64,000 bases of DNA from Bacteroidota bacterium (GTDB lineage: Bacteria; Bacteroidota; Bacteroidia; Cytophagales; UBA9547). The first letter of the stretch is position 1, and each line of letters opens with the position of its first letter. Positions 10,665 through 49,560 of the stretch are shown here, piece after piece. The DNA lies in assembly GCA_004293915.1 (NCBI GenBank), contig RDZG01000063.1, positions 1-64,000 of the forward strand. The letters run 5' to 3'. Below the pieces are notes generated by a model that ran no database searches, was not told the origin of the DNA, and was given only the letters and a program-made list of their open reading frames with translations. Position numbers and translations under genes: made by a program.

Positions 10665-10666
10665 AA

Positions 10667-10698
10667 AAAAGCCTCTCAAAATCATTTGAGAGGCTTTT
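10667..10698. terminator. Bidirectional intrinsic terminator
   Basis: A perfect 14-bp hairpin: AAAAGCCTCTCAAA, four-base loop ATCA, TTTGAGAGGCTTTT. A-tracts and T-tracts flank it on both sides. It lies 23 bases from the stop of the minus-strand T9SS protein and just after the plus-strand pseudogene, so it can stop both. Confidence 0.9.
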
Positions 10699-10720
10699 AA
10701 AAATGTTATTCTAATCGAAA

Positions 10721-13700
10721 TTAGTTTTTGACTACTTTCAATCTTTTCAGTATTCCATTTTTATTCACTAACACAAAATAGATGCCAGAAGGAGAAGTAG
10801 CTAAATCGAAAGTTGTTTTTGAGGCTACTTTTGATTCAATCAACTGACCATGATTGTTAAACAACGTTATCGTAGAAACTTCATTTGCATCTATAGTAAG
10901 TATGCTTGTTACTGGATTTGGATATAAAGAGATATTTTCCAATTCATTTGATGTAACACTCACACCAGTAGTTGTATTTGCAGTTCCTGCAACCGATACC
11001 GTTATCATATTACTCAAAATTGTAGTATTGGCAGCATTGTTGCTAATCACAAATACATCTACACTTCCATTTGACAAACCAGTTAATAATCCAGATCCAC
11101 TGATTGTGGCAATGGCAGTATTGCTAGTATACCACATTTCTGATACAGGATTAGTAGCATTGATTGGGCTATATCCATCTACTGAAAATTGAATAGTAGA
11201 ACCCACAGAAACTGAACTCGCACCGCTGATGGTAGACGAAACTAAAGCAACAATAGGATTACTCACAGTTACTGAAATAATATTACTCATTACTGTAGTA
11301 TTGGCAGGATTATTATGCACTGCAAATACATTAACCGATCCTGGACTGATAGCAGTTAATATTCCACTTCCATTGATAGTTGCAATGGCACTATTGCTTG
11401 TATACCAAGTTGTAGACACTGTAGCAGTAGCATTTGAAGGGCTATAACCAACAAGTGAGAATGTAGTAGTAGTGCCTGTGATTACAGCATTAGCACCACT
11501 AATGGTAGAAGATGCTACCGGGATGATAGGTGTAACTACCGTAACTGTATACATATTACTGGTTACGGTAGTTGCAATATTGCTCATTACTAAAGAAATA
11601 GTTGTAAGTCCATTTGCCAAAGCTCTCAAATTGCCAGTACCATCAATAGTTGCTACTGTTGTGTTTGATGAAACCCAATTTATACCTAAAGGAGTAGTTG
11701 GATTTAAGGGTAAATAATTTAGTAACGAATATTGTTTAGTACTACTTACATTGACTATTGCATTTCCACCCGTAATAGTTACGCCATTTATTCCTATGAT
11801 TGGATTTGTAATAGTAACCGTGATTATATTACTTGTTACAGTAGTTCCTGTACCATTGTCAAGAGTTGCAGACACATTGATTGTACCTACGTTTCCTGCA
11901 CCAACAGGAGTTAAGATTCCATTTGCATCAATAGTAGCAATCGATGTATTACTACTTCTCCAAGTTGAAATTACAGTTCCTACTCCAGAAGAAGGTGTAT
12001 ATCCAACTAAGGTGTAAGTGGTAGTAGTATTAGTCAAAAGCGAAGTAGCTCCTGAAATAGTAGCAGTTAAAATAGGATTAATAACATTTACAGAAATGAC
12101 ATTACTTGTAATAGTACCTAATGGATTCATTACTTTACAAGAAATGTTAGCCATTCCAATTCCTAATGCTGTAAATGCACCAGTTGATGGATTAATAACT
12201 ATTACACTAGGATTGCTCGAGGACCAAGTATTGATAACTGGAGAAGTGATAATAGTAGGTGAATATCCAGCTAAAGTATAAGTATAAGTCTGACCTGTAA
12301 CTAAAGCAGAAAGACCACTAATAGTTGCACTAACCACACCAGCTTGAATTTGAGGAGTAACTGTAGCCCAAGTTGAGCCAAATCTAAATTCATCTAAGAG
12401 CAATTGATTAGATTGATCTGCATAAATATGCATACTTTTAAATGAGATATTAGCAGAAGTATTTGCAGTTGTAGTTGGAGTATTTGGTTCATCCATAGCT
12501 TCAAATGTAGATTTGTCGGGATTTACATATACTGAAATGGTAGAATTATTTGAAAAATCTACTTTCAAAACTACAAATATAGTTTCATTCACAACAACAG
12601 GTTTTGTAGTTTGAACATAATTATTTCCAATTCTTAATGTCCAATATTTTACTCCAGCTGTTTCTGATCTAGAAGGGTCATAATAACCAAATCCAAATGT
12701 TTTACTTTGATTGGCTCCTCCATCATCTGTTGGGTTATTCTGATCATGAAATGTAATCTTGCTTTCATTTTGATTTTCAACTGTTTTTGAAATTATAAAA
12801 CTAATAAACAAAGTTTTGCCATTCTGACTACCAATATTTCTATTGTTATTAAATTGTTCTGAAGCATCAAAATAACCTGAAAATGGACCTGTATAACCAT
12901 TATCAAATTTTCTACCTGCCCCTTCAAAATTTTGACCAGCACTCATGTAAAAATCACTTGATTGTAACCCTGGAATAACAAGAGGGTTTGCATTTGCATA
13001 AGCAAATCCATTGCTACTTGCTTGTGCCCATGCTGCAGAAAATCCAAAACCACTTACGTTCGAACCTTGTATAAATGTAGCTCCTGGTACACTAAAACCT
13101 TCATATGCTAACAATGGAGGAATAGGTTGATTAGTAATTGTAATAACTGACATTCCAGAAACTGAATTTACTGAATTTGTAAAAGTACCTGTAATTGTAA
13201 CAATTCCATTTTTTATTGGGGTTACAATTCCATTAGTTGATACACTTGCTAAAGATGGATTAGAAGATATCCAAGTTGTGATTATTGGAGAAGTAGCAGA
13301 ACTTGGAAAAACAAGTCCAGATAAAGTTGATTTACCACCTGGAGTATTAATTGCGTTTGTTGAAGCAGTTACATTTACACCACTAATTGAAACAATAGGA
13401 ACTGCAGGTGTTACATCTGCCCAAGTAGAACCAAAACGAAATTCATCTATTAACAATTGATTTGCTTGATCTGCGTAGATATGTATACTTTTGAAAGAAA
13501 TTTTATCGTTTGTAGAACTAACAATAGTTGAAACATTTGGTGCATTTGCCAATCCAAAACTAGATTTATTTGGGTTTATAAAAGCAGTAATGGTAGATGT
13601 TGAAGCAAAATCAACTTTTAAAACCGCAAATATAGTTTCTCCTACAACTAATTCTTTAGTTGTTTTTACATAACTATTACCAATTCTTAAAGTCCAATAT

Positions 13701-24787: not shown

Positions 24788-25423
24788 ATGATTCGCTTTT
24801 TCAAAACGCCATTTTTTTTCTCAAAACTATTTCCTGATTTGATTTTTCATCAATCTAGAAATGAAAAAAAGATATATTTAACTTTTGATGATGGTCCAAT
24901 TCCAGAAATTACCCCTTTTGTGTTGTCAGAATTAGAAAAACACAAAGCAAAAGCTACTTTTTTTTGTATTGGCGATAATATTAGAAAACATCCTGAAATT
25001 TTTGCTCAAATTTTAAATAATAATCATGCCATTGGTAATCATACTTTCCATCACCTAAATGGAAAAAATACAACTCAAAAATTATATTTCGATGATATTT
25101 TATCTTGTAAAAACACGTTGATAAATAATAATTATATTTCTGAAAATCAATTGTTTAGACCTCCTTATGGTGCCATCAAAAAAAGTCAATTAACTAAATT
25201 AAAGCAAGAATATAAAATTATTTTTTGGGATGTTTTAACTTATGATTTTGATAAAAATATAAGTCCAGAAAAATGTTTGGAAAAAGCAATTAAGCACACA
25301 AAAAACGGCTCAATTGTTGTTTTTCATGATAGTTTGAAAGCCGAAAAAAACCTAAAATATGTTTTGCCACGATTTTTAAATCATTTTTCAGAAAAAGGCT
25401 TTGAGTTTGAAGCAATACATTAA
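24788..25423 (+). CDS. Polysaccharide deacetylase (NodB-like, carbohydrate esterase 4)
   Basis: 211 residues. Motif 1 is YLTFDDGPIPE (catalytic base Asp and metal Asp), motif 2 is GNHTFHHL (metal His pair H-x3-H), motif 3 is FRPPYGA, and a late IVVFHDS holds the final His. It removes N- or O-acetyl groups from polysaccharides such as peptidoglycan or chitin-like polymers with a divalent metal. The N-terminus carries a short hydrophobic stretch (FFKTPFFFSKLF) but no clear signal peptide. The next gene, feoA, begins ten bases after it. Confidence 0.9.
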   Translation: MIRFFKTPFFFSKLFPDLIFHQSRNEKKIYLTFDDGPIPEITPFVLSELEKHKAKATFFCIGDNIRKHPEIFAQILNNNHAIGNHTFHHLNGKNTTQKLYFDDILSCKNTLINNNYISENQLFRPPYGAIKKSQLTKLKQEYKIIFWDVLTYDFDKNISPEKCLEKAIKHTKNGSIVVFHDSLKAEKNLKYVLPRFLNHFSEKGFEFEAIH

Positions 25424-32509: not shown

Positions 32510-35500
32510 ATGAACAAAATAAATACTGCTTCGAGAATATTTTTATTCGTATTAGCACAATTTTGTACGCTAAATTTTGCCATCGCTCAAAATAATTGTT
32601 TGAAGATTGGGCAAAATGTAACTGGTATTCAGTTTAAAGATGTGTTTAAGGAAAATATTGGGTGGCGATTTCCTGGTACAAGCCCAGCTGCGGTTTGTTC
32701 AGGTATTTTTGGCGCTCCTGGATGTCCTGAACAACCAATTATAGATGCTTTGCCAAAAGATGCAAATGGATATGTTACAGGTGGTATTCCTTATAATGTA
32801 TCTGGTTTGCAAACATCTATAAATAATACCTATTCTGGTTCTATTACCTCTATCACTACCTATATGCAGCGTGAAAGCTACGCTCCGTATGCATTGGGTG
32901 ATTATTATGTTTTTTGGCAAGGACAAGGTACTATGCGATTCTTTTGGAACGATGGTCCTGGTATGATAAGAATTACGGCAGGTTCTTACGGAACTATTCC
33001 TGTAGCCAATGGTTACGAACTTAATTTTGGTGTCGCTAACAATGGAATTACAGCCATTTCTGCCAATGCAGTAACTTCCGATGCTTCTGCGGGAGTGCAT
33101 TATTGTAGAATAACTGTTCCTGCCACTACAGGTACTCCAGCAAAAGATCCATTTAATAATATTGCTGGAATCGGAATGCAGATAACTTCATCTGCGGTTG
33201 CTCCCAACCATTTAAGAGGGATTTCTGTAGTAGCACCCGATTTTGGCTCAAACCCTGGTGGGTATAATGGATCTAGTAAATTTATAGCCGATGGCACTAA
33301 TGCTCGTACGTTTGTTAATTCTGGTCCCGAACATTTCAAAACACAGCCTTTTCATCCAGCATTTTTAAATTGGATTAAAATTTTTCCTGTTTTTCGTTTT
33401 AAAGATGCCATAGGAGTAGATCAAGAAACTCCTAAAGATGTATCTTGGCTCAATGTGCGTCCGTATGATTATTATACGCAAACCGCTCAAATTCCTGGTG
33501 TTGGACATCCTTATGCTTATATGTACATGATTCAGCTATGTAACTTGCTTAAAAAGGATGCATGGATAAATGGTTTTGTGAACTCTGACGAAAATTATCA
33601 ACGGAATTTGGGAAAATTATTTAAAGATAATTTAGATCCAAATCTCAAAGTGTATTTAGAGTTAAGTAATGAAAATACATGGAATTTTTTTCAGGGCTTT
33701 AATGGACCAGGTTTGATAAGTAACTACGCACAATCCAACAGCATGGACTTTTTTGATGCTGCATCCTTTTTAGAAAATAGATTTTGGGTAAATTTCGGCA
33801 GCAGTTGGAAAGGCGAAGACCAAGATCGTATGGTGCGTGTTGTAGCTGGGCAAGCGGTAAACGGATATCATTGTGCTCGTAAAACACAATATCACGAAGC
33901 CAGAAACGAAAGATATGATGTGTTGTCAGTGGCTTGGTACTTAGATCAGGTACAAGATAATGCCGCTCTTATTCCTCAAAATGGTACGCCACTTCAGTTG
34001 CTCAATGCCATGATTGCAGATAATAATTTTAATAGAAATCAAAACTCTTCTGTAAACCCTAATGGAAATATTTTCCCTTCTATTGCAAAAGTTATGCAAA
34101 TGCATGTGGGTATGGCACGTGCAAAAGGTAAAAAACTTGCACTTTACGAAGGTGGAACGCATCATTCTTATGAACAAAAGGTAAATGGGGTTGGGGTTGA
34201 TCGAGCAATTTGGGATAGGTCTAAGTTCATTAAATGGTTGCCAGAGATTCGTACATTTTATCGTTCCTTAATTGATACACTTAGAAACTTTCCAGAAGTG
34301 GAGTTGGCAATGGCATTCAATCTTTATGGTGGAAGCGGTGAACCATTATCTAATGGACAAATTGTAGAAGCGCATAATTTTGGTTTTGTACCAAACGCAT
34401 TTTCAGATACAACCGCAACAGGAGATAAGTCTTTTACATCTACGGAATTTGGAAATATTAATATTTTCGGTACCAATGCCCATGGCGTATGGAAAGAATT
34501 GAATGCACAAAACAATGTTTGGAAATTCAACTCAATCTGTACTCCTACCATCACATCCGATATTGTAGGTTCGGGTTTGTCGTTAAATTTTGTAAGCACT
34601 AGAAGTCAATATGTAAATGTAACTGGAGCTTCGCTTTTCGATCCCTTAGCTACAGCCAATTACACCATCGAAACTTGGGTAAAACCAGCCGAACTCGAAC
34701 GGCAGCAAGCTGTTTGGGCTTACTCTAATGGTTCAAATGTATTAAATGCACTTAATATTACTGCACTAAACAAATTAGAGTGGAATATTGGCAATGGCTC
34801 GACAATATTAACAGGTCCACTCGTGGAACGAGATAAATGGTACCATGTGGCAGTAGTCAAAAATGGTACAAGTGTACAAATGTATGTAAATGGTACGGTG
34901 GCAGCATCGGGTTCGGCATCGGGTTCGGCTGGTGTGCCAACCAACTACACACTTGGTGCATCAAATGCGGGTAGCCTAGCCAATTATTTTCGTGGTGGAT
35001 TAGACGAACATAGAGTTTGGAGCGGTGTAGCACTCTCGCAACCTACGATTCGAGATTATATGTGTAAAAAAATAATACCAGCCACACCTAACTATGCTTC
35101 GCTTTCTACCTATATCGAATTTAATAGCATTTCGGGCACTAATTTGATGGATAGAAAAACAGCACTTTCGCATGGCACATTAGTCAATTTTGTAGCTACC
35201 GAATCTTATGGTTATTTGCCGTCTGGTGCACCTATTGGCGATTTGAGTACCAATATTTATCCTGGCTCGTGGGCTAATACAGGGCTTTCATATACAAACC
35301 CTGTTGGTGGAGATATTATCAATGTAAATGGCATAGGAGCAGGCAATCCAGATGGCGTACATATATACGTAGTAAATCAAGCCCCAACGCTTAATACCAA
35401 ACCACAGTTTTACACCTCAATTGCAGGAAAATATTTTGGTGTATTTTTAGCAAATGGCACAAATCCAAGTTATAATGTAAATTATAACTTTCAAGGCAAT

Positions 35501-38500
35501 GCATCTGCCTCTGCTACTGTTGGGTTTAATCGTTTGGTAAAACGCGATGGAGGTTCAGATTATGCTTGGGATAATTCTGGAGCAAGAATTGACCCTTTAA
35601 ATAAAACATTGATAACCAACTGCACCGAAAATTATAGAGCAGAATATATTTTAGGTGTTCGACAAAATCAGTTAATCCAAAGACCTGGTTCAGGAACTTG
35701 TATCAGTTTACCAGGTACTTCAGTAGGAACATTTCTTAGTTTTAAAAGATCTAATGTTTATACGCTTTCGTTTTGGGCTAAAGGCGTAGGAGATGGTGTA
35801 ATGGGATTTCGTGATCCTTTTACTGAGCGTTATATTAATTATCGAGCAACGAATAGTTCTGATTTTGTGGCTAGATATCAAGATTTATCTTTAGGAAATC
35901 AAAACAAAATTAGTGGGGGAGAAAATACATCTTGGACTCACTATGCTTACACGAGAGATGCCTCTGGTTTGTTTGTTTATTATGTTAATGGTTATCCATC
36001 TTCTTCTATTGATTTTCCTGGCGATACATCAATGGTAGATATGTTCATAAAAGCAGGGGGACCTTGGGCTGGTCAATTTGATGAGCTTTCTGTATGGAAA
36101 AGAAATTTGAGCCTTACAGAAATTAGAGATTTGATGTGTAAAAAAATCACACCTTCTCACCCAAGCTATTGCGATTTACAAGCTTATTTCAAATTTGACG
36201 AAGGCAGTGGTAATGTGATGGAAAATACTTTAGGTGCAGGCAATATTGTATTTGATGGTCCGATTGCTTGGGTGAGATCTGGAGCTGCCATAGGAGATGA
36301 AAGTAAACATAACTACAACGCTCCTTTTATTGCAAGCATTGCACATCCTGATGGTGATTTTATAAAAGTAACTCCCACAGTGCAAAATGGTATGGTAGGC
36401 ACACAGGTCTATATTGTAAATTCAGATCCCAATTATCCTATTTTCCCAAGTACAGAAACCTATCCTGTAGGCATTCCAAATAGAGATACTTCAAGATATT
36501 TTGGAACGTATGTAATTCCATTCTATCCAATAGCTAATAACGACAATCAAAGGTCTTACTTATATGAATACAATTATGCGGGTAACAAAAATATTAATTT
36601 CACCAATGAGGCAAATCTTAGATTGATTCGTAGAGAAACTAATCAAGTTTTAAATTGGACAAACACTGGTATTAATCCTGTTATTGCTTCAAAAACTTTA
36701 ACTTGGCAATCTCCAATAAGACTAGATCCGCATCATCCTGTTGGTGAGTTTTTGTTAGCAGGTACCAATCCAAGCCCATTTATTGCTCCGCTCAATGGTA
36801 TTCCCACTCTGGCTGGAATTACAGGAAAATCTACTTTATGTTTAGGAGAATCTAATGCTTTATATAAAGTACTGGCTCCAGTTGATAAACGTGCATTATC
36901 ATTCAAATGGATAGCTTCAAATGGGTTGTCTTTATCAAATTCTACAGCAGATACAGTAAATGTTACAGCCTTAACAGCAGGTGCACAAACATTAACTGTT
37001 ATAGGAATTAATAAATTCGGCACTAGCACACCATTCATATATCCAATTAATGTTCAAAATACGGGTTATTTGAGTTCTAATATCACTGGAAATTTAAACC
37101 CATGTAATTCTGCAACTGCAACATATTCAGTTTCAAATGTTTCGCCATCGCCAATAGCCTATCTTTGGTCTGTAACTGGCGATGCCATTAATCCTACTCC
37201 CTCTAATTTAACTCCTTCAAACGCATTTAATTTTGGGGGTGGTGGGCAAAGCATTGTTCGTATCTCTGTATATGGACAATATTCTTGTGGATTGGCATTG
37301 ATAAATACATTAAATGTAAACAACAATAGTTTGCCAACTACTACATTAGGAATACTAGGAGATTCACTTTGTTTGATAGACAATTCTACAACAATTGCTA
37401 TAAAAGTTAATAATTCTCAAAATGGAGTTACCTACACAGCCTTTGATGGTGCAACCCCAGTGGCTACCACTACTGGTAACGGAGGCACACTTTTATTGAA
37501 TGTCCCAACAGGCATTTTAACGACTTTTGTAAATAAAGTAATTACAGTAAAAGCTCAAAATAATCTTTGTCCACTCATTCCAGTTAATATGGCAACATCG
37601 GCAAATATTTTGATGGGAAATACCCTAACTGGGGGTCAGTTAGCTCCTACTTTTGCAAATCCTGGTAATATTTGTTATGATTTGAATACAGGAGATATCA
37701 AAGATTTTCCATTAGTTATTACAAGTGGCGCTGTTTCTGGAACTACTTATACTCCCAATTATTTAACTTTTGCACAGCCTTATGGCGAACCTTTTGAATC
37801 TGTTATGGGAAGATCAGTTATTGCTACTGGTACTTCAGTAACCATGTTAGCCAAACCAAGTTCTTTCCCGTTTTGGTTGTCGTTTGGAGTTCCAAATAGT
37901 ATTAGTGGTTTTGCAAAAGCTCCCGGTTGCCCAACGCAAAAATTAACTACTAAAACTACATTTACACTCAACAACACCCCTGGAGTTGCTGTTCCTTCAA
38001 AAGTTGCCGGTCCAGGCAAAGATCAAAAAATGGATGGTGATGGTAAATATCCTGTATGTACTGGAACACCTACAAGCCATTTTACTACTGCAAAAGGTGG
38101 TTCAATTTCTCAATTTAACCAACGCTATTTTAATGGTGCTATGACGAATGGTAGTGCTAATATTACCATGAGTAGTTATTCTAATATGACTTCTGCTCAG
38201 ATTGATATCAATGATGTAGTGTATATTTTAGGAACTCAGACAGATGGAAGTGGTTTACCTGCTGGCAATAATTTGCCACAATTAGATGGTAATGGAAATA
38301 AAACACCATATTTCGTAGTAGCTGTAAACTCAGGTGCTAATACGATTCAATTAGCAACATCAAGAGGTGGTGGAGCAATTACAATGAATTTTAATGCTAC
38401 AAATATTAAATTCTGGGCACCTATTACCATTGATATTCCAGCTGGCACAAATACATTTAATATTCCTAATCGTTTTGGAACATTAGGTTTAGGTTTATAT

Positions 38501-41500
38501 TCACAAATTAATTTTATTTATGCTTCACAAGCACCAGGTGGTGTGTGTGTAGGATATAGTGGTGTTCAGTGCCATCCTACACAATATGTGGCGAGTTTTA
38601 GTGGAAGAAATTTCCAGATTTCTGCAAATCAAAGACAAGGAGGGAATAAATCTGCGGGTTACTTTATCAATCGTGGTAGAATTACATATTCTGCTGGTAA
38701 TGTTAATGTGACTGGTTTTGCTACTGTTTTTGCAAATGAAGATTTGGCTGATAATGGCGATGGGCTTGGTGGGGCTTTGTTAAGAGACATGAATAATAAC
38801 ATTATTGGTGAAGTGAACTCTGTAACCAACGAAGGTGCTTTGGTATTAAAAGCTGGTGCTATAGGGAATGGCACAAATGTAGCATTCTCATCTAGCAAAA
38901 GAATATGGTTTAGCAGTGTAGGAGAAAGCGTAGTATTATCAGCTCCACAAGATACGGATCCTAATGGCGTTGAATGGACGGTTGGACCCAAAGATGCCAT
39001 TTTAACTGTTACCTCATTTTATGGAGGGGGTGCTTACAATGCAGCTACTGGTGTATTTAGTGGAGGTAATTCTGATCCAGATTTAGTTAAAAATGGTATT
39101 ACTATCACTTGGAATGGAACATTTTCTGGAGTTGCAACCATTGGTGTTACATCATCAAAATCAACACCTTGTTTTGCAAAAAGCAATCCTCAAGGATTAC
39201 CTAGTGCGCCAGGATACGAACAGACTAACATTACTTTAGATATGTTAGGTCAAATTCCTAGTCCACCTTTGCCTATTGGCTTTACTGAACTTAGTTTTTG
39301 TCAATCGCAAAGCAACACAAATTTTGTAACCAACTCAAAAAGTGCAGTTGGAGGATATCAATGGCAATTGCAAAATGCTGGAACCAGTAATGTAGTTGCT
39401 TCTGGAGGTACTTGCGGTTGGAGCAAAGTATCTAATGTAGTTGGTGATAAAGGATTTAATGATGCATTTGGTACTTTAGGTTTTGGCGGTGGTTACTGGG
39501 CAGAAAACACTTCACCTTGTTTAAATTCAACCCCATTAGGTGGTTCACCTAGTCCGAATAATAATACAGCTGAAGTAAGTTGGCAGCCAGGCTTTACAGG
39601 ACTTGCAACTATTCGTGTTCGTACGTTAGGTTGCGGATCTATGTCGAATGCAGGTGATATGCGTGCTTCGCCTTGGGTTACGGCTGTAATCACTATTGGT
39701 GGTGCTCCAAACCCAGGAAATATTAACTTGGCAGGACAATTACAGTTATGCCAAGGAGCAAGCCCTACCCAACAATACATCGCAACTGGAACTAATATTG
39801 ATCAATTTAAGTATTATCTACGCAAACCAGGACAAATAGGAGACATAGACCCAGGATTATTGGCATACTATTCTTTCGATGGAGATTATAACAATAAAGC
39901 TACTGGAGTTTGGTCGCTTGGAGCAGCAGCAAATGGTACACCAAATAGCGTTACGGTAGCAGCTAATAAAAATGCTGTTGCTGCAAGAGCAATAACTTTT
40001 GATAATGGTGGTGATTATGTTGATTTAGGCTCAGATAGTAGATTGAATTTAACAAAAAGTTTTTCTATTGCGGCATGGATAAATTCAACGGGTGGTAATG
40101 GTTCATATTCAATTTATTCGAGAGGAACAGGTGGAGCAAATTGGCAAAATGATGTTCAGTTTCTAATAGATATAAATGGTTCAAATGCAACATTAGGAAT
40201 TAGAGGTACTACAGCTCCTTTTGCTACTCCCTATGGAGGAAGTTGGCCAGGAACATACATTGGTGCAAACTTTAGTGCTATAGGATGGAAGCATATTGTA
40301 TATACTGGTGTTTACGGTGCGGGCATACTGTCTTTGACTGGGTATGTAGATGGGGCTTTGTTAGGAAGCGTCAATATACCATTCTCTAATTCACCATTTA
40401 CTGGCAATGTGAGTACGAATTCTCGTATAGGTACTAATGGAGCACAAGGCGGCTCTCTAATTGGTGGTATAGATGAAGTGATGGTATTTGACAGGGTTTT
40501 ATTACCAGCTGATGTATCAGCTATTTATGCACTCAATGCGAATGCATTTACCGATCCATCAGATTACATTGGAGAAATAAATGGAAACACAGGTCTTTGT
40601 GCATGGCAAACTACATTCTCTGGTGCTGCTCAAATTGGTGTGCAAGCTATTGGTTGCGGTGGTTCGTCCATTAGATTATACGATGCTTTTATTTCACCGA
40701 AACCAAGTATTTTAGGTGTTTCAATTGCTGATCCATCGGGTTGTGGTAATCCATTGGCTTCTGGTTCTGTAACTATAACTTTAGCAAGTTTCAATCCAAG
40801 TACATTTACTGGCTCTCCGTGGGCAGTTTCTTGGAACAACGATTTAATTTCGGATGGTACAGCTACATTATCAGGCAATAATACAATAACTTTAAATACT
40901 GGTTTATTTGCAGGCTCTAGTGTTACAGGAGTTACTGCTTGGTATAACGGTTCTAATGGTTGTAATGCCCCTATTTCTATAACATCTAAAATCATAATTG
41001 GTACTTCACCGCCTTCTTCTTTAATAGGAACTTCTCTTATGGGAGCAAGTCAAGTCTGTACTGCGAGTACAAGTAGTGGAATAAATGTGCTCGGTTCAGA
41101 AAATAACGTTCGCTATTATGCCATGATTGGCAGTTTAATGGTTTCTCCAACCGTTGTTGGTACAGGTGGAAACATTCAATTATCAATTACAGGTAATAAC
41201 ATACTCACTTCATCAGGAGTAAACCAAGTTTATCAAATAAGAACATTAGCTTTTAGTCCAGGTTGCTCTTTGGTTACTTTAGCTGGTGTTCAAAATATTA
41301 CTGTAAATGGTTTAAGTTCAGCAAGTGGAGCAATAATCACAGGAACAAATCCAGTTTGTAATCCAGGTACCTCAGTTGTATCTGTAGGTGGTGTAAATGG
41401 AACTATAGATTGGCAAGTTTCTACAAGTGGTGCATTTGCTTCTACAGGAGGAACAGTTGCTAATTACACTACGCCATCATTAACACAAACAAGTACATTT

Positions 41501-42307
41501 AGGGCATTAGTTACAAATGGTGCATGTCCAGCTATTACTACAACTTCTTTAGTCGTAACAGTTAATTCGCCAGTTACAACTACTTTTGCTTATAATCAGC
41601 CTGCCTATTGTAATAATTTAACTACTGTAGTATCTCCAGTTTTATCTAATACAGTTGCTGGAGGTGTATTTACAGTTGCTCCTACAGGATTAACTTTGAA
41701 TGCTACTACTGGTGCTGCAACAATAAATTCAAGTTCAGCTGCTTTATATACAGTTACTTATAGTTATACTGTGCCAGGCTGTCCAGCTTTGACTACAACA
41801 ACCAGTATGCGTATTGGTTCTATACCAGGTTTAGCTTTTGGATTTATACCAACTGTATTTTGTACTTCTAGTGGTAATCAAACACCGGGAACAACTTTTA
41901 CAGGTTTAGGTTCAGGTGGTACTTTCAGCTCAACCTCGGCTGGATTAGTGTTTGCAAATGCTTCAACTGGTCAAGTTAATATAGCAGGCTCAACGGCTGG
42001 TACATATCCATTAATTTATAATGTATCAGTTGTTGGTTGTGGAAATGTAACAAGTACAGTAGGTAATGCAATCACGATAAATTCTTTATCAGGAACTTCA
42101 ATTTCATATACAGGAACTCCGTATTGTAATAATGTTTCATCTGCAAATGTAGTTGCAGTTAATACAGTTTCAGGAGGAATATATACTTCTGCCCCCGTAG
42201 GATTAACAATTAATTCAATTACTGGACTTGTAACACCAACAAGTAGTACACAAGGAATTTATACTATTACATATAGCTACACCATTCCAGGTTGTGGACT
42301 TTGGTAA
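32510..42307 (+). CDS. Giant secreted multidomain protein, N-terminal part (frameshifted)
   Basis: 3265 codons. Signal peptide to ~27. Residues ~28-690 form a glycosidase-like TIM-barrel region with KVYLELSNENTWNF (candidate acid/base Glu388) and ALYEGGTHHS (candidate nucleophile Glu547). Three LamG-like domains follow (~687-840, ~1064-1200, ~2447-2675; each with an ETWVKP/SFWAKG/AAWINS strand and a GGLDEHRVW-type end). Between them lie Ig/PKD-like strands (~1427-1520) and unassigned beta-rich regions. From ~2940 there are ~85-residue Ig-like repeats (PYCNN...TINSITGLVTPTSS...YTIPGCG). The frame ends abruptly inside a repeat with no sorting domain. The rest continues in another frame from 42292. 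Predicted extracellular. The glycan target is unknown. Confidence 0.85.
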   Translation: MNKINTASRIFLFVLAQFCTLNFAIAQNNCLKIGQNVTGIQFKDVFKENIGWRFPGTSPAAVCSGIFGAPGCPEQPIIDALPKDANGYVTGGIPYNVSGLQTSINNTYSGSITSITTYMQRESYAPYALGDYYVFWQGQGTMRFFWNDGPGMIRITAGSYGTIPVANGYELNFGVANNGITAISANAVTSDASAGVHYCRITVPATTGTPAKDPFNNIAGIGMQITSSAVAPNHLRGISVVAPDFGSNPGGYNGSSKFIADGTNARTFVNSGPEHFKTQPFHPAFLNWIKIFPVFRFKDAIGVDQETPKDVSWLNVRPYDYYTQTAQIPGVGHPYAYMYMIQLCNLLKKDAWINGFVNSDENYQRNLGKLFKDNLDPNLKVYLELSNENTWNFFQGFNGPGLISNYAQSNSMDFFDAASFLENRFWVNFGSSWKGEDQDRMVRVVAGQAVNGYHCARKTQYHEARNERYDVLSVAWYLDQVQDNAALIPQNGTPLQLLNAMIADNNFNRNQNSSVNPNGNIFPSIAKVMQMHVGMARAKGKKLALYEGGTHHSYEQKVNGVGVDRAIWDRSKFIKWLPEIRTFYRSLIDTLRNFPEVELAMAFNLYGGSGEPLSNGQIVEAHNFGFVPNAFSDTTATGDKSFTSTEFGNINIFGTNAHGVWKELNAQNNVWKFNSICTPTITSDIVGSGLSLNFVSTRSQYVNVTGASLFDPLATANYTIETWVKPAELERQQAVWAYSNGSNVLNALNITALNKLEWNIGNGSTILTGPLVERDKWYHVAVVKNGTSVQMYVNGTVAASGSASGSAGVPTNYTLGASNAGSLANYFRGGLDEHRVWSGVALSQPTIRDYMCKKIIPATPNYASLSTYIEFNSISGTNLMDRKTALSHGTLVNFVATESYGYLPSGAPIGDLSTNIYPGSWANTGLSYTNPVGGDIINVNGIGAGNPDGVHIYVVNQAPTLNTKPQFYTSIAGKYFGVFLANGTNPSYNVNYNFQGNASASATVGFNRLVKRDGGSDYAWDNSGARIDPLNKTLITNCTENYRAEYILGVRQNQLIQRPGSGTCISLPGTSVGTFLSFKRSNVYTLSFWAKGVGDGVMGFRDPFTERYINYRATNSSDFVARYQDLSLGNQNKISGGENTSWTHYAYTRDASGLFVYYVNGYPSSSIDFPGDTSMVDMFIKAGGPWAGQFDELSVWKRNLSLTEIRDLMCKKITPSHPSYCDLQAYFKFDEGSGNVMENTLGAGNIVFDGPIAWVRSGAAIGDESKHNYNAPFIASIAHPDGDFIKVTPTVQNGMVGTQVYIVNSDPNYPIFPSTETYPVGIPNRDTSRYFGTYVIPFYPIANNDNQRSYLYEYNYAGNKNINFTNEANLRLIRRETNQVLNWTNTGINPVIASKTLTWQSPIRLDPHHPVGEFLLAGTNPSPFIAPLNGIPTLAGITGKSTLCLGESNALYKVLAPVDKRALSFKWIASNGLSLSNSTADTVNVTALTAGAQTLTVIGINKFGTSTPFIYPINVQNTGYLSSNITGNLNPCNSATATYSVSNVSPSPIAYLWSVTGDAINPTPSNLTPSNAFNFGGGGQSIVRISVYGQYSCGLALINTLNVNNNSLPTTTLGILGDSLCLIDNSTTIAIKVNNSQNGVTYTAFDGATPVATTTGNGGTLLLNVPTGILTTFVNKVITVKAQNNLCPLIPVNMATSANILMGNTLTGGQLAPTFANPGNICYDLNTGDIKDFPLVITSGAVSGTTYTPNYLTFAQPYGEPFESVMGRSVIATGTSVTMLAKPSSFPFWLSFGVPNSISGFAKAPGCPTQKLTTKTTFTLNNTPGVAVPSKVAGPGKDQKMDGDGKYPVCTGTPTSHFTTAKGGSISQFNQRYFNGAMTNGSANITMSSYSNMTSAQIDINDVVYILGTQTDGSGLPAGNNLPQLDGNGNKTPYFVVAVNSGANTIQLATSRGGGAITMNFNATNIKFWAPITIDIPAGTNTFNIPNRFGTLGLGLYSQINFIYASQAPGGVCVGYSGVQCHPTQYVASFSGRNFQISANQRQGGNKSAGYFINRGRITYSAGNVNVTGFATVFANEDLADNGDGLGGALLRDMNNNIIGEVNSVTNEGALVLKAGAIGNGTNVAFSSSKRIWFSSVGESVVLSAPQDTDPNGVEWTVGPKDAILTVTSFYGGGAYNAATGVFSGGNSDPDLVKNGITITWNGTFSGVATIGVTSSKSTPCFAKSNPQGLPSAPGYEQTNITLDMLGQIPSPPLPIGFTELSFCQSQSNTNFVTNSKSAVGGYQWQLQNAGTSNVVASGGTCGWSKVSNVVGDKGFNDAFGTLGFGGGYWAENTSPCLNSTPLGGSPSPNNNTAEVSWQPGFTGLATIRVRTLGCGSMSNAGDMRASPWVTAVITIGGAPNPGNINLAGQLQLCQGASPTQQYIATGTNIDQFKYYLRKPGQIGDIDPGLLAYYSFDGDYNNKATGVWSLGAAANGTPNSVTVAANKNAVAARAITFDNGGDYVDLGSDSRLNLTKSFSIAAWINSTGGNGSYSIYSRGTGGANWQNDVQFLIDINGSNATLGIRGTTAPFATPYGGSWPGTYIGANFSAIGWKHIVYTGVYGAGILSLTGYVDGALLGSVNIPFSNSPFTGNVSTNSRIGTNGAQGGSLIGGIDEVMVFDRVLLPADVSAIYALNANAFTDPSDYIGEINGNTGLCAWQTTFSGAAQIGVQAIGCGGSSIRLYDAFISPKPSILGVSIADPSGCGNPLASGSVTITLASFNPSTFTGSPWAVSWNNDLISDGTATLSGNNTITLNTGLFAGSSVTGVTAWYNGSNGCNAPISITSKIIIGTSPPSSLIGTSLMGASQVCTASTSSGINVLGSENNVRYYAMIGSLMVSPTVVGTGGNIQLSITGNNILTSSGVNQVYQIRTLAFSPGCSLVTLAGVQNITVNGLSSASGAIITGTNPVCNPGTSVVSVGGVNGTIDWQVSTSGAFASTGGTVANYTTPSLTQTSTFRALVTNGACPAITTTSLVVTVNSPVTTTFAYNQPAYCNNLTTVVSPVLSNTVAGGVFTVAPTGLTLNATTGAATINSSSAALYTVTYSYTVPGCPALTTTTSMRIGSIPGLAFGFIPTVFCTSSGNQTPGTTFTGLGSGGTFSSTSAGLVFANASTGQVNIAGSTAGTYPLIYNVSVVGCGNVTSTVGNAITINSLSGTSISYTGTPYCNNVSSANVVAVNTVSGGIYTSAPVGLTINSITGLVTPTSSTQGIYTITYSYTIPGCGLW
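42200..42256 (+). repeat. 57-bp direct repeat, copy 1
   Basis: GGATTAACAATTAATTCA... identical over 57 bases to 42685-42741. It encodes GLTINSITGLVTPTSSTQG in the frame of the first ORF. Confidence 0.95.
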
Positions 42308-42312
42308 TAAAT
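42289..42312 (+). other. Frameshift junction of the giant surface-protein gene
   Basis: Upstream the frame reads ...YTIPGCG-LW-stop. Downstream a different frame reads LVINSLPG. In sister repeats GCG is followed by about seven codons (such as ALTTTTS) before the L-x-INS segment, but only two bases lie here. A loss of about 19 bases therefore explains both the missing residues and the frame change. The TTG at 42292 is not a credible start. Confidence 0.8.
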
Positions 42313-45300
42313 TCTTTACCAGGAATATTATTTAATTATTCAAATTCGCCATTTTGCAAAAATGGTGGTACAAGTTCTGCTCCATCAGCTACTATTGGTG
42401 GTATAGGAGGTAGTTATTCGGGTACAGCTGGTTTGGTATTTGCAAATACAACTACTGGTACAATTGATTTGAACGCATCTACTGCAGGTACATATAATGT
42501 AACTTACACCGTTTCAATTGCAGGTTGCGGAAACGTAACAAGTACAGTTGGTAATGCAATCACGATAAATTCATTACCTGGAACTAGTATTTCTTATGCA
42601 GGTTCGCCTTATTGTAATAATGTTGCATCTGCGAATGTAACAGCCGTAAACACTGTAACAGGCGGAATTTTTACAGCTCCAGCAGGATTAACAATTAATT
42701 CAATTACTGGACTTGTAACACCAACAAGTAGTACACAAGGAACATATACTGTAACGTATAATTATACGATTGCAGGTTGTGGAGCATTAACAACTACCAC
42801 TAGTTTAAGGATAAATAGTGTGCCTGGCTTATTATTTGGCTTTACAGGTAGTCCATATTGTAATATAGGTACAGCAACACCAACAACTTCTGGCTTTAAT
42901 GGAGGTGGTTTTAGTTCGGCTTCATCAAGTTTAGTATTTACAAATACTGTAACTGGAATAGTAAATTTAGCAAGTTCAACTGCAGGCACATATCCATTAA
43001 CCTATACTGTTTCAGTACCAGGTTGCGGAAATATATCGAGTACAGTTGGTAGTGCATTAACTATTAATAGTGTTCCAGGCGTGAATATATCATACGTTAG
43101 CCCAGTTTGTAATACGTCAACTATTTCAGGTGTTACAGCACTAAACACTGTCTCAGGTGGTATTTATTCAGCAACTGGTGGATTAACAATTAATCCTACA
43201 AATGGAACTGTAAATCCTTCAGGATTTGGAGGTACATATACGATTACTTATAGCTATACCATCGCAGGTTGCGGACCGCAAAGCACAACTACTAGTTTGG
43301 TTGTAACTACGTTGCCAAGTACCCCAACATTGAGTTATGGTGCTGCACCATATTGTAGTAGCAGTTCTCCAATTAGTTTGGTTTCTTCTACAAATGCTTT
43401 AAATGGCTCATTCTTTAGTACTGCCACCGGTTTTAGCGTAAATGCTACAAATGGACAAATTACGATTCCACAAAATACATTAGCTGGTGTTTTTGTAGTT
43501 CGTTATGATATTCCAGCTGGTGCAGGATGTGCATCCGTAACGGGAAATAATACCATTACATTATCGGGAGTACCTAATGTTTTGACTATCACAAATATAC
43601 CAGCCACACAATGTTATAATGCTCAAGTTGTTTTAAATGCAACAGGTACAATACCAGGTGCATCTATACAATGGTTGCAAGATGGAGTAGCAGTTGGTAC
43701 AAACTCAGCAGTTTATACTACTACTGGTTTAACAAATACATCATATACTTATGTTGCGGTTCTTAATAATGGTGTTTGTACCACAGTTCCATCAGCACCT
43801 ATGGTTGTAAATGTAAATGTAAATCCAACGGTTACAGGAATTAGCTCAAGCCAAAGTTTTGCTTGTAGTTCGCAATCGGTAACCTTTAACAATACTGGTT
43901 TAGTTGGAAGTATAGTTTATGCAGTAAATACAGGTACAGGTTTTAATGTATTGCCAAGCAATATTTATACATTTACCAATACGATTGTTGGTAATGCCTT
44001 TAGTTTTGTAGGTTATGCGTTTGTAGCTGGTTGTCAAACAGTAACTTCAACTCCAATTATAGTTAATTCAAGTCTTTGCGGATTAACAGCTGCGTTTGCT
44101 TCTAACCCAACACCAATTTGTTTAACTAATGCATCTTCTACCGGAGTTACATTTACAAATACTTCTTCAAGTGCTGGAGGAACAATTTTAGGTTATGTTT
44201 GGAATTTTGGTGCAAATGCAACACCAGCATCAACGGTCATTGGTATAAATTCAACAAGTTATACTATTAATGTAACTTATTCTGCAGCTGGTCCGAAAAC
44301 GATAACATTATCTATTTTGGGAACAGGAGGTTTAACAAGTACGATTTCTGGTTCTGTGCAAGTAGATGCTTTGAGTACAATTTCTGCAATGTCTATTCCC
44401 GTAACTGCAATATGCGAAACCAATACCTCATCTGTAGTATCTGTAACCGCTCTAGGAAACATTCAATGGTATAAAGCAGGAGTTGCACAAGGCACGGCAG
44501 GTTTACAAGTGGCAGGTGCAATGACATCAAACACAACATTTATTGCTACTGCGGTAAATGGCGTTTGTCCGATGGTAACTGCTACAGGAGTTGTTACAGT
44601 AACAAATCTGAATGTTGGTGGTTCAATCGCAGGAGCTAGTCCAATATGTGCAAGTTCTTCTGGACTTAATTTAACAGTAACGAGTCAAGTGGGTAATAGC
44701 TATACTTGGTATAATAGTACCAACAGTGGAACTACTTGGAATGCATTATCAAGCAATGTGAATACTATTGCAACGGGTACATTATCTACTACAACTTCTT
44801 ATGTTGTGAGTGTAACTGGTGGAGCTTGTCCAAATGTAGCATCTGGAATTGTAAATATAAATGTAACGCCAACACCAATTGCAGGTACATCAAGTGTGGA
44901 TAGAATGATAGTATGTACGAGCGATGGAAATGGTGGAATTTACACATTAGCAAATTCATCTGGTACGATTCAGTGGGAACGCTCTTTAGATTTAAGCTCT
45001 TGGGCAAATGCAGCAGGTGCAGGTAATACAACAGCATCATTGACAGCAAATGTTGAAACCGTTATTGGTCCGAAATATTTCAGAGCAAGAGTAACCAACG
45101 GTGGTGCTTGTGGAGATGTTTACTCAAATGTAATTACTGTTACAGCATCGAGCTGTGGTTTACAAGCTGCGTTTACTCCAATCCTTACCACAGTTTGCGT
45201 AAGTGTTGGTAACACGGTACGTTTCACAGACGCATCTACTTCTACAAACACAATCTTAGGATATACTTGGGATTTTGCAGGAGGTACAGGCGGAAATGTA

Positions 45301-48300
45301 AATACTGCTGGTCCGCATGATATTACTTTTGGAACTTCAGGTCCAAAAAATGTACGTTTAACAATTTTAGGTCTAGGAGGATTAACAAGTATTGCTAATG
45401 GTAGTGTAACTGTGGATGGAACAAGCTTACAAGGCTCAATATCATCAGGCTTAGCTGCTCCTATATGTTATAAAACAGGTTCTACTTTAACATTGACAGG
45501 TAGCTTAGGTGCTATTCAATGGTATAGTACAACTACTGGATTGTTAGTAGGTACAACCTCTACTTTGGGTACTGGTAACCTAACTGCAAGTGATGGTTAT
45601 TTTACAACGGTTAAAAATGGTGTTTGTCCGATGCTAACTACTTCTGGCGTTTCTGTAGCAGTTCATCCACAAAGCAATGCGGGTACTATCACATCAAATG
45701 CCGCAAGTGTTTGTCAAAACTTAACAGCTACGTTGGGAGTAACAGGAAATACAGGTACAATATACCAATGGCAGTCATGGAATGGCTCGGCTTTTGTAAA
45801 TGTTCCAAATGCTACTTTAGCTGGCTTTACTACTTCTGCATTAACAAATACCATATCAGGAACTTATCAATACAGATTAGAAGTTAAAAGCGGTATAAAT
45901 GCATGTACACCTGCTTATTCTAATACAGTTACAGTAGATGCTATTGTATGTTCGTTGTCTGCAAATGTTACTGTTAATGGAACTTTATTACCAACAGCAA
46001 TTAGTTTACAAAATGCTTCGGGTACTGGTCTTAATTTTGGAGTACAATTAATTAGTGGTACTGTGGTTGGTTACAACTGGAGCTTAGCTGGAGCAGGAAC
46101 AACCTCTTCTGCAGCTTCAACAGTAAATACAGGTTATGCAACCCCAGGTGTTTATAATGTATTAGTTACTGTAATTGGAGTTGGTAATGTGCCATTCCCT
46201 TATTTAGTAGTAATCACTATTGATGGAATGAGCCTACCAGGTACTATTACAGGTAATGGTACTTCTGTAAATCCAATTTGTTATAACACAAACGATGTAC
46301 TCACGTTGTCAGGTTTTGTAGGCAATGCCATACAATGGTATAATAGTTCAGGAATAATTGTAGGTGCAAATGCTGCAACTTACACTACGCCAAACTTAAC
46401 GGCAAATGAAACTTATTTTGCTACTGTTAGAAATGGAGTATCTCCAATGGTAACAGCAACTGGTTTTATTGTAAATGTGCGCCAACAAGCTACATCTACT
46501 GGTGTAAATATTCCTGCTACTTTGTGTATTGGTACTAATGCTAGCATTACTGCAACTGGAATTTTAGGAACTGTTACCGGATGGGAATCTTCAGCTGATA
46601 ATTCTTCATGGAGTTCGACTGCTTTAACTGGTAATCCAACTACATTGGTATCATTAACTGATCCCATTGTTTATTACAGACCGCTAATTACAAACGGAAT
46701 TGGTTGTACGCCTGTTGGTGGAAATTCAGTGTTAATTGATGCTATTGGTTGTACAGCTACTGTTTCATTTACTGGTCATCCTTTGGCTACACAATGCGTA
46801 AGCACAGCAAGTGTTGCAGGATACACCATGGTAGATGCAACAATTTCTGCGGCTCCTAAATTAGCTTGGGCTTGGAATTTTGGATCTGGCGCTAATCCAC
46901 TAACTGCTACTACTTCGGCTCCTGGTGTAGTAACCTATTCAACGCCAGGTGCTAAACAAATTACTTTAACGGTAACTATTGCTGGCGGAAATGTATTTAC
47001 TTCGACTACAACGGTTGGTATTTCTGACTCATTTACGTTAGATGGACTTGCTTTTGCTAGTTCAATAGTTTCAAATTCTACTGCACTTTGTTCGGGCAAT
47101 AGCTTAAATCTAAGTATATCTGGTGTGCCAACTGCAACTACTTATGCTTGGGAAAGAGCAGCTACAAATACATTTGTTTCGCCAACTTCTTTAGGTAGTG
47201 TAACCACAGCAGGAGAATCAATGCCTATCCCAACTGGCACATCATCTGATTATTTCTACAGATTAGGTGTTACAAATGGTGCTTGTTTGGTTACAAATTA
47301 TTCAAATGTAATTACTGTAAGTTCTACTTTGCAGCCTTCGGCTTCAATTTCTTACACATTAGATAATTGTAAAGGTAATGTTAGTCAATCTGATGTTCTA
47401 GTTACGGTTACAACTGTGGCAGGAGGTTCATTCCCTTATTCATTCTCTTCGGGTTCTTTAGGAGGAAGTTTAAATTCAAGTTCAGGTTTGATAAGTATTG
47501 CTTCTGCTCCAATTGGTAACCATGTTGTAACATTAACTGCGTCTGCGTTCAAAGGTTGTAATGCTTTCACAACTACTACGGGTGTTAATATCAATCAAAA
47601 TCCAACTGCTTCGTTTAGTTATCCTAATGCCTCATACTGCGAAAACTATGGAACTGTACCAGTTGCTTTATTTAACACCTCTGGAACCACCACTACTGGT
47701 AACTTCTTTAGTAACTCTACTTTAGTTGTGAATGCTACAAACGGAGAAGTAACTACCAATAATACTACTCCTAGTAATTATTCTGTATTTTATGCTTTGA
47801 ATGCAACAGCTGGTTGCCCTGCAAGTACCTCTTCTGGGGTATCATTTACAATTAGAGCAAATCCAGTTGCAAACACGCCAACATACTCAAATAATTCAAA
47901 TAATTTGTATTGTAATATTGGTACATCTGGTGATGCAACTTCTACTAATGCTGGTGGTTCTTATGCTTCAAGTCCTAGCGTTGCGTTCTCAAATGCTTCG
48001 ACAGGTAATATAAACCTTGCTAGTGTTACAACTAACAGTATATTTAACATACGGTATGTAATAAATGCAACGCCAACTTGTGCTGCAGTTACTTCTACTG
48101 GGTTTGCAACAGTTAGTGTTAATCCACAAGTTACGCCAAGCATTTCTTATGCAAATTCTGTTTATTGTTATAATAATAGTACAAATACTGAACCTGCAAG
48201 CGTTAATCCAAGTGGTGGTACTTTTGCAGTTAATGGTGCAGGCTTTACGATTAATAATAACAGACAAGTTGTGTTTGGAAACAGTATTGGCAAGTCATCA

Positions 48301-49560
48301 TCGTTTACTGTATCTTATACTACAACTGTTCCTGGATGTACTTCACAAACTATTACTACTACTGGTATTACAGTTGTTAGAATGGTTGCACCAACTAGTT
48401 TTGGTTATACTTCAAACACAAAAGGTGTTGGTGGTCAGTTTTGTAATAGTGGTGCTGACTTAGTCCCTACTTTTGTTGGTTCTGCATTTGATGGTTGGAA
48501 TCCTACTTTCAGTGTTAATATAGCAGGTGTGCCTTCTAGTAACGTAATTAAATCAGATGGTACAATTATGATTAGTAAATTACCTGTAGGTAGTTGGACA
48601 GTAACTTATACCGATAATGTAAATAATTGTGGTGCTTTTACTGCCCTTACAGCAGTAGTAAATGTAACCTCTTCGGGTGTTGCAGATATATTCCAAACTG
48701 ATAAAGGAGTTTGCGATGGAAGCCCAATTGTTTTAGTAGTTGATCCACAAAAAATTGCTGATGCTTCTACATTTGTATGGTCTGAAAAATTCAATAATGG
48801 CGTTACAACTTTAGCTGAAACCACAAAAGAATTAAATCATACAATGACTGGTAGTGGCTTACATACAATAAAAGTATCAGTAACAAATGGTCAATGTTTG
48901 CCAAAAGCAGATTCTGTAAATATAAGTGTTGATGCATATCCAGAAGCTGGTGTGATAAAAACAGTAATACCTGGCGATACCTTATTATGTTATGAACCTA
49001 CAATTGCCAATTTGACAATCATTGGGTTCAGAGGTAATAATTTTATTTGGGAATACTCTAAAAAGGAAGTTGATGAAGAAAAAAATGTAAAATATTTGCC
49101 AGCTCAAGGTTTTTATCAAAGTTTCTTGGCTTACGATAGTAAACTTCCATCTGCTACATCTCCAGCATTTAATTCAAATGCAGATTTTACAAGTAAGTTA
49201 TATATTAGAGCAAAAGTATACAATGGTGTTTGTACACTTGGTCCTGACGGAAAAGATGTTTATACGCCAGTGTTTATTATTTCTAAATGTCCTAAAAATA
49301 ATTTTATTCCAAATGCTTTAACTCCAGGCTCAGCAGATGGTAATTCGTTCTGGGATATTCAAAAATTACGTTTGCCTGATAATGTTACAATAACAATCTT
49401 TAATCGTTATGGAGTAGAAGTTTATAGCATGACAGGCAAAGATTTACAAACTCGCACTTTCGATGGCGATGGCTTGCCAGCAGGTACTTATTATTATTTG
49501 ATTGATTATAAAGGTGCAAAAACAGAAAATGATCGTGGGGATTTAACAATTATTCGTTAA
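42292..49560 (+). CDS. Giant secreted multidomain protein, C-terminal part with T9SS type B sorting domain
   Basis: 2422 codons continuing the interrupted giant gene, with no start signal of its own. Ig-like ~85-residue repeats fill ~1-430. Further Ig-like units follow, and four PKD-like domains (~600-700, ~960-1050, ~1222-1320, ~1487-1590; typical cores GYVWNFG, GYTWDFAGG, GYNWSLAG, AWAWNFG). The last ~90 residues (CPKNNFIPNALTPGSADGN, ITIFNRYGVEVY, DGDGLPAGTYYYLIDY) are a type B T9SS domain of the gliding-motility-associated (CHU_C) kind. Type B signals typically direct surface or extracellular release, often with PorP/SprF partners. None is in the window. As it stands this half probably is not made. 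Confidence 0.85.
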   Translation: MWTLVINSLPGILFNYSNSPFCKNGGTSSAPSATIGGIGGSYSGTAGLVFANTTTGTIDLNASTAGTYNVTYTVSIAGCGNVTSTVGNAITINSLPGTSISYAGSPYCNNVASANVTAVNTVTGGIFTAPAGLTINSITGLVTPTSSTQGTYTVTYNYTIAGCGALTTTTSLRINSVPGLLFGFTGSPYCNIGTATPTTSGFNGGGFSSASSSLVFTNTVTGIVNLASSTAGTYPLTYTVSVPGCGNISSTVGSALTINSVPGVNISYVSPVCNTSTISGVTALNTVSGGIYSATGGLTINPTNGTVNPSGFGGTYTITYSYTIAGCGPQSTTTSLVVTTLPSTPTLSYGAAPYCSSSSPISLVSSTNALNGSFFSTATGFSVNATNGQITIPQNTLAGVFVVRYDIPAGAGCASVTGNNTITLSGVPNVLTITNIPATQCYNAQVVLNATGTIPGASIQWLQDGVAVGTNSAVYTTTGLTNTSYTYVAVLNNGVCTTVPSAPMVVNVNVNPTVTGISSSQSFACSSQSVTFNNTGLVGSIVYAVNTGTGFNVLPSNIYTFTNTIVGNAFSFVGYAFVAGCQTVTSTPIIVNSSLCGLTAAFASNPTPICLTNASSTGVTFTNTSSSAGGTILGYVWNFGANATPASTVIGINSTSYTINVTYSAAGPKTITLSILGTGGLTSTISGSVQVDALSTISAMSIPVTAICETNTSSVVSVTALGNIQWYKAGVAQGTAGLQVAGAMTSNTTFIATAVNGVCPMVTATGVVTVTNLNVGGSIAGASPICASSSGLNLTVTSQVGNSYTWYNSTNSGTTWNALSSNVNTIATGTLSTTTSYVVSVTGGACPNVASGIVNINVTPTPIAGTSSVDRMIVCTSDGNGGIYTLANSSGTIQWERSLDLSSWANAAGAGNTTASLTANVETVIGPKYFRARVTNGGACGDVYSNVITVTASSCGLQAAFTPILTTVCVSVGNTVRFTDASTSTNTILGYTWDFAGGTGGNVNTAGPHDITFGTSGPKNVRLTILGLGGLTSIANGSVTVDGTSLQGSISSGLAAPICYKTGSTLTLTGSLGAIQWYSTTTGLLVGTTSTLGTGNLTASDGYFTTVKNGVCPMLTTSGVSVAVHPQSNAGTITSNAASVCQNLTATLGVTGNTGTIYQWQSWNGSAFVNVPNATLAGFTTSALTNTISGTYQYRLEVKSGINACTPAYSNTVTVDAIVCSLSANVTVNGTLLPTAISLQNASGTGLNFGVQLISGTVVGYNWSLAGAGTTSSAASTVNTGYATPGVYNVLVTVIGVGNVPFPYLVVITIDGMSLPGTITGNGTSVNPICYNTNDVLTLSGFVGNAIQWYNSSGIIVGANAATYTTPNLTANETYFATVRNGVSPMVTATGFIVNVRQQATSTGVNIPATLCIGTNASITATGILGTVTGWESSADNSSWSSTALTGNPTTLVSLTDPIVYYRPLITNGIGCTPVGGNSVLIDAIGCTATVSFTGHPLATQCVSTASVAGYTMVDATISAAPKLAWAWNFGSGANPLTATTSAPGVVTYSTPGAKQITLTVTIAGGNVFTSTTTVGISDSFTLDGLAFASSIVSNSTALCSGNSLNLSISGVPTATTYAWERAATNTFVSPTSLGSVTTAGESMPIPTGTSSDYFYRLGVTNGACLVTNYSNVITVSSTLQPSASISYTLDNCKGNVSQSDVLVTVTTVAGGSFPYSFSSGSLGGSLNSSSGLISIASAPIGNHVVTLTASAFKGCNAFTTTTGVNINQNPTASFSYPNASYCENYGTVPVALFNTSGTTTTGNFFSNSTLVVNATNGEVTTNNTTPSNYSVFYALNATAGCPASTSSGVSFTIRANPVANTPTYSNNSNNLYCNIGTSGDATSTNAGGSYASSPSVAFSNASTGNINLASVTTNSIFNIRYVINATPTCAAVTSTGFATVSVNPQVTPSISYANSVYCYNNSTNTEPASVNPSGGTFAVNGAGFTINNNRQVVFGNSIGKSSSFTVSYTTTVPGCTSQTITTTGITVVRMVAPTSFGYTSNTKGVGGQFCNSGADLVPTFVGSAFDGWNPTFSVNIAGVPSSNVIKSDGTIMISKLPVGSWTVTYTDNVNNCGAFTALTAVVNVTSSGVADIFQTDKGVCDGSPIVLVVDPQKIADASTFVWSEKFNNGVTTLAETTKELNHTMTGSGLHTIKVSVTNGQCLPKADSVNISVDAYPEAGVIKTVIPGDTLLCYEPTIANLTIIGFRGNNFIWEYSKKEVDEEKNVKYLPAQGFYQSFLAYDSKLPSATSPAFNSNADFTSKLYIRAKVYNGVCTLGPDGKDVYTPVFIISKCPKNNFIPNALTPGSADGNSFWDIQKLRLPDNVTITIFNRYGVEVYSMTGKDLQTRTFDGDGLPAGTYYYLIDYKGAKTENDRGDLTIIR
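42685..42741 (+). repeat. 57-bp direct repeat, copy 2
   Basis: Identical to 42200-42256, offset 485 bp. 485 is not divisible by three, and the two copies are read in different frames. Adding the ~19 missing bases gives 504, which is divisible by three. Confidence 0.95.

Follow-up and report, generated by a model that had tools for sequence, protein, structure and literature searches.

A probable GH-A-type glycosidase domain of an apparently undescribed family in a giant Cytophagales surface protein, with relatives in phages and exopolysaccharide loci

The 64,000-nt stretch of Cytophagales DNA analysed here (the window) encodes a giant protein whose residues 27 to ~680 are almost certainly a polysaccharide-cutting enzyme, and probably a secreted, retaining glycosidase of GH-A type that belongs to an unlisted family and acts on bacterial exopolysaccharide or matrix. 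The computation supports the fold type, the catalytic layout, the secretion signals and the distribution of the family across phages and exopolysaccharide loci. The kind of enzyme, a clan GH-A glycosidase, is known; the family itself appears to be undescribed in Pfam, NCBIfam, PHROGs and PDB, and it shows an unusual insertion and a notable occurrence in phages and exopolysaccharide loci. Rather tentatively, we further propose that these proteins form one large unnamed GH-A-type family acting on exopolysaccharides, common to polysaccharide loci and tailed phages, that carries a beta domain after strand 1 and is built here into a giant T9SS surface protein.

The ORF at 32510–42307 on the forward strand encodes 3265 aa. 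Its likely signal peptide was recognized from a basic N-terminus, a hydrophobic core and an A-x-A preceding Q27 and, together with the C-terminal sorting domain, it gives the product the features of a T9SS cargo, encoded by a gene that is frameshifted in the assembly. TIGR04131 matched at the sorting domain just under its cut-off (E 2.1e-8, 34.2 bits vs. 35). The Laminin_G_3 match listed in Table 1 is one of three matched stretches within this ORF. An enzyme fused to LamG, Ig and PKD modules and a T9SS signal had been predicted, and the modules were indeed recovered with Pfam, but they do not lie in a single ORF: the gene is split at ~42300 in the assembly, where ORFs 32510–42307 and 42292–49560 overlap in differing frames. 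Comparison with a relative (L002) indicated that ~17–20 bases are absent at window position 42298, inside a repeat. In two congeneric genomes (G001 and G002), the giant gene is open throughout as a single ORF of 5,737 or 5,941 aa. Because these relatives are intact, the break at 42292–42307 may be either an assembly error or a recent, real mutation. A match to TafC (NF052521) in the giant ORF fell in a LamG-like region, far under its cut-off, and was rejected.

Table 1. Features of the giant gene and its glycosidase-like domain (window coordinates)
Feature	Position	Strand	Basis
Likely signal peptide, residues 1–26, MNKINTASRIFLFVLAQFCTLNFAIA	32510..32587	+	By eye
Glycosidase-like domain, residues 27 to ~680	32588..34549	+	Family alignments; AlphaFold2 model of residues 27–707
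Predicted barrel strand 1, KIGQNV, residues 32–37, family motif G-x-N	32603..32620	+	Model strand E6–11
Beta-rich insertion of ~230 residues, residues ~46–276, between strands 1 and 2	32645..33337	+	Almost exclusively strands in model, modest confidence
R296, strand 2 invariant Arg	33395..33397	+	78/78 members; model strand E268–271, plus 26
E384-L-S-N387-E388, end of strand 4	33659..33673	+	Strand 4 = 381–385 in model
Y477, end of strand 6	33938..33940	+	76/76 members; strand 471–477
Y546-E547-G-G, strand 7	34145..34156	+	Y546 and E547 76/76, GG 89%; strand from residue 542
First LamG/ConA-like domain (Laminin_G_3)	34604..35050	+	Pfam PF13385, E 3.2e-39
Frameshift within repeat, splits giant gene into two ORFs	42292..42307	+	ORF overlap in different frames
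Giant gene remainder, Ig-like and PKD modules	42292..49560	+	PF19081, PF18911
C-terminal T9SS type B sorting domain (CHU_C)	49306..49548	+	PF13585, E 4.8e-14

The fold of the domain was modelled with AlphaFold2 from 32 sequences. The model had a pTM of 0.74 and a mean pLDDT of 62.7, with values of ~80–94 across most barrel strands. The beta insertion and the loops were modelled with low confidence; a single-sequence model (pLDDT 30) was discarded. When residues 32–37 are taken as strand 1, exactly eight barrel strands are present and, judging from strand order alone, the insertion would follow the first of them. The original prediction had described residues ~28–690 as a TIM barrel. Its barrel order was borne out, whereas its continuity was not, as the beta-rich segment interrupts it. 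In a Foldseek search of the PDB, 58 structures matched at E ≤ 0.001, the lowest value being 3e-7, and the best 50 of these were essentially all GH-A enzymes (GH53, GH26, GH51, GH10, GH1, GH5, GH79 and similar beta-glycosidases; we take the numbered families to belong to clan GH-A). Thus, the anticipated likeness to this clan held, in that the solved structures nearest to the model were GH-A glycosidases, GH5 and GH79 included, at moderate TM-scores of ~0.3–0.5 by target length. Strand and helix order and the Foldseek matches both point to the (beta/alpha)8 barrel of clan GH-A, in a model of moderate confidence. The best structural match was the GH53 endo-beta-1,4-galactanase of Bacteroides thetaiotaomicron (6gpa, 6gp5), which has in common with the domain the predicted TIM barrel and the Arg, Asn-Glu, Tyr and Glu on strands 2, 4, 6 and 7. 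The two differ in that identity is ~10% and the domain bears a large beta-rich insertion after strand 1. We hardly credit the idea that the domain is some other TIM-barrel enzyme, GH-A-like by fold alone and not a glycosidase: TIM barrels are common and the TM-scores are moderate, but the best structural matches are to GH-A enzymes and not to a variety of barrels, the catalytic residues lie on the GH-A strands, and one member is fused with GH16.

Enzymes of clan GH-A carry an Arg on strand 2, Asn-Glu on strand 4, a Tyr on strand 6 and a Glu on strand 7; they hydrolyse glycosides with retention, using catalytic glutamates that lie ~5 Å from each other. The ORF contains the motifs ELSNENTWN, with the codon for Glu388 at 33671–33673, and LALYEGG, with that for Glu547 at 34148–34150. 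The 159 residues predicted to separate the glutamates of ELSNE and YEGG were found in the translation from 32510, and the model agrees with their assignment to strands 4 and 7, placing Asn387-Glu388 just past strand 4 and Glu547 on strand 7. In an alignment of 87 non-identical stretches, with 76–81 covering sequences per position, eight residues were invariant wherever covered (R296, E384, N387, E388, W391, Y477, Y546 and E547). E384, N387, E388 and W391 were each found in all 81 covering members. Within the viral set, the invariance of the SNE and YEGG letters is in part a product of selection, as most viral members were collected with patterns holding one of the two motifs. R296 and Y477 are outside the collection patterns, and the plasmid members (found by tblastn) and Bacteroidota members (found by sequence or profile) were gathered without the motif. 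Overall identity to the window domain outside its own genus is only ~17–26%, and as both glutamates are nevertheless identical in all covering members, the two motifs are not a product of chance. With N387-E388 and E547 invariant on strands 4 and 7, R296 on strand 2 and Y477 on strand 6, the invariant residues match the Arg/Asn-Glu/Tyr/Glu set and thereby support assignment to clan GH-A. E388 is the proposed acid/base and E547 the proposed nucleophile. Conservation was also high at G34 (81%), N36 (83%) and G87, G130 and G138 (89–97%). Adhesive modules amounting to thousands of residues are fused to the domain, as might be expected if the barrel had lost catalysis and now had a carbohydrate-binding or structural role within a giant adhesin. 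We consider this very improbable, because a decaying enzyme would not keep its whole catalytic set, and both the window and every covering member retain that set in full.

Placement of the domain among known families proved unsuccessful. Neither Pfam nor NCBIfam gave a match at E values up to 10, and members scanned singly showed no relevant Pfam, NCBIfam or PHROGs family across the barrel. Searches of PDB sequences gave nothing meaningful for the single domain, and two family profiles likewise found no PDB relative; we attribute the weak matches to lipases, kinase SH3 domains and scaffoldins to chance. The original prediction could not place the domain in a numbered GH family either, and Pfam, NCBIfam, PHROGs and PDB provided no such placement. 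Profile–profile comparison with hhalign gave P 0.25 for GH5 (PF00150, no Pfam match up to E 10), P 0.27 for GH39 (PF01229, no Pfam match; a target of only four rows) and a best P of 0.13 on 50 columns for GH53 (PF07745, no Pfam match). GH53 ranked first of the compared profiles, and its Asn-Glu aligned with that of the domain, though P was not significant. None of the three gave a significant match, and neither did DHDPS, the negative control. Likeness to GH79 was found in fold only, with no Pfam or PDB sequence match. As the comparison with GH5, GH39 and GH53 shows no relationship, the family looks to be a separate one. CAZy holds more families than Pfam, and the domain could on that account belong to a recent numbered CAZy family lacking Pfam, NCBIfam and PDB representation, in which case only the label would be missing. 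This is rather improbable given that two profiles had no PDB sequence match and that literature searches found neither a paper on such a CAZy family nor a description of the domain family.

Relatives of the domain were detected in bacteria and in viral contigs. A tblastn search against plasmids found them in Novosphingobium, Roseobacter, Shinella, Thioclava, Rhizobium, Gloeothece and Sulfitobacter, and the Shinella member as query added Paracoccus, Rhodobacter, Neorhizobium, Parasedimentitalea and Pseudoalteromonas. A profile search identified members in 12 of 393 Bacteroidota genomes. Scanning a whole-genome collection with a single sequence yielded the two closest relatives only, and one query against the INPHARED phage collection yielded no relative. 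The family spans Bacteroidota, Alphaproteobacteria, one gammaproteobacterium, one cyanobacterium and 54 IMG/VR contigs. On a tree of 64 members, viral and bacterial sequences were interleaved with moderate support, and the window domain clustered with its Bacteroidota relatives. Two further members were found in the window's own genome (contigs C78, 15145–17016, and C31, 12169–13056); of their reading frames, one has 2475 residues and the other, which ends early, has 415.

Several bacterial members were encoded next to polysaccharide genes. The Shinella zoogloeoides member adjoins an O-antigen ligase, an export protein and glycosyltransferases; that of Roseobacter litoralis, glycosyltransferases, a nucleotide-sugar dehydrogenase and chain-length (Wzz-type) and CpsD/CapB proteins; and that of R. 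denitrificans, two glycosyltransferases. Neighbours of the Thioclava member include a mannose-1-phosphate guanylyltransferase, a nucleotide-sugar dehydrogenase, a phosphomannomutase and a flippase. Polysaccharide genes also adjoin the Rhodobacter member and a member on a Paracoccus plasmid that is a fusion with GH16 and RTX repeats. No polysaccharide genes were found alongside the Paracoccus pCP157 and Pseudoalteromonas members. Control stretches on three plasmids contained no polysaccharide genes (Shinella), about one (Rhodobacter) and another exopolysaccharide locus (Thioclava), and the association of the alphaproteobacterial members with exopolysaccharide clusters is therefore only suggestive. 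The Paracoccus fusion, encoded on a Paracoccus marcusii plasmid (L073, 3459–10364), is 2302 residues long and combines GH16 and the family domain with numerous RTX calcium-binding repeats.

Two characterized hydrolases allow a comparison. PelA is a glycosidase of a different type, and PslG belongs to GH39. Like several family members, PslG is a glycosidase encoded inside an exopolysaccharide gene cluster, but the organisms and clusters are others, and the domain has no profile similarity to GH39, as represented by four rows. The hydrolase domain of PelA, compared by role only, resembles the family in being located in an exopolysaccharide locus, where it trims the polymer (PMC9894940). PslG is described as a retaining endo-beta-glucosidase of the Psl cluster (PMC11912335).

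At least five of the 54 IMG/VR member contigs (L019, L021, L040, L060 and L067) carried phage structural or packaging genes, namely terminase, head protease, portal, capsid, head–tail adaptor or tail genes. Family members on these contigs, as distinct from the window protein, are located among virion genes, as would be expected of phage depolymerases. Parts of the L067 member itself also resemble virion structural proteins. As in the DepoScope set of depolymerases, these candidates are phage proteins with a predicted polysaccharide-degrading fold encoded near structural genes. The predicted TIM barrel sets them apart, since most known phage depolymerases are beta-helices or propellers, and TIM barrels accounted for 10 of 984 structures in that set (PMC11326577). 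Two further observations concern individual members on viral contigs. On the IMG/VR contig L029 (3223–7059), the member carries at its C-terminus an additional domain that matches phage phosphodiesterase/hydrolase families. On L019, the member (9095–11824), which includes a phrog_644 match, and the ORF starting at 11982 have similar N-terminal sequences, suggesting a common N-terminal module with different ends.

The location of relatives in slime-making gene clusters and phage genomes suggests that the family cuts bacterial surface polysaccharides. We infer retaining catalysis, endo action and the family's substrate, which would be a bacterial exopolysaccharide or matrix glycan. Hydrolysis would proceed by double displacement, with Glu547 as the nucleophile and Glu388 as the acid/base. 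In bacteria, members may trim or edit the cell's own exopolysaccharide, and in phages they may breach host slime. In the window protein, the signal peptide and T9SS sorting domain would direct secretion. The enzyme would form the N-terminal part of a giant surface protein and be kept on polysaccharide or on the cell surface by the LamG, Ig and PKD modules.

The case for bacterial exopolysaccharide as substrate is weakest for the window protein itself, because its scanned neighbours include no exopolysaccharide cluster or glycosidase and its branch differs at conserved sites. Ten neighbours of the giant gene were scanned, FeoB, a histidine kinase, a GntR regulator, MutL and IlvD among them, and no exopolysaccharide cluster, polysaccharide utilisation locus or other glycosidase was found in this set. 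In the window branch, M338 and F356 stand in place of the Glu and Pro, respectively, that are each found in 86% of members, and one additional residue follows E388. T9SS proteins of Cytophagales with LamG modules, of which the window protein is one, are typical of polymer scavengers. These three points would suit a genuine GH-A glycosidase that digests foreign (algal, plant or detrital) polysaccharide for food or attachment, the phage and exopolysaccharide links not extending to the window branch. We find this credible but unlikely, as a polysaccharide utilisation locus or second glycosidase is missing among the same ten neighbours and the family elsewhere points to bacterial glycans.

If the preferred reading of a GH-A-type family acting on bacterial exopolysaccharide is true, dozens of proteins annotated as "hypothetical" or "calcium-binding" could be reannotated as predicted polysaccharide-degrading enzymes whose catalytic residues are already specified. 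They would offer a direct route to enzymes acting on bacterial exopolysaccharides, for most of which no degrader is known. The phage members would represent a TIM-barrel class of depolymerase largely missed by present tools, as the DepoScope counts given above illustrate, and exopolysaccharide gene clusters would be linked in a testable way to the phages that must cross that layer. As a separate observation, a polysaccharide deacetylase gene is located at window positions 24788–25423, ~7 kb upstream of the giant gene and adjoining feoB.
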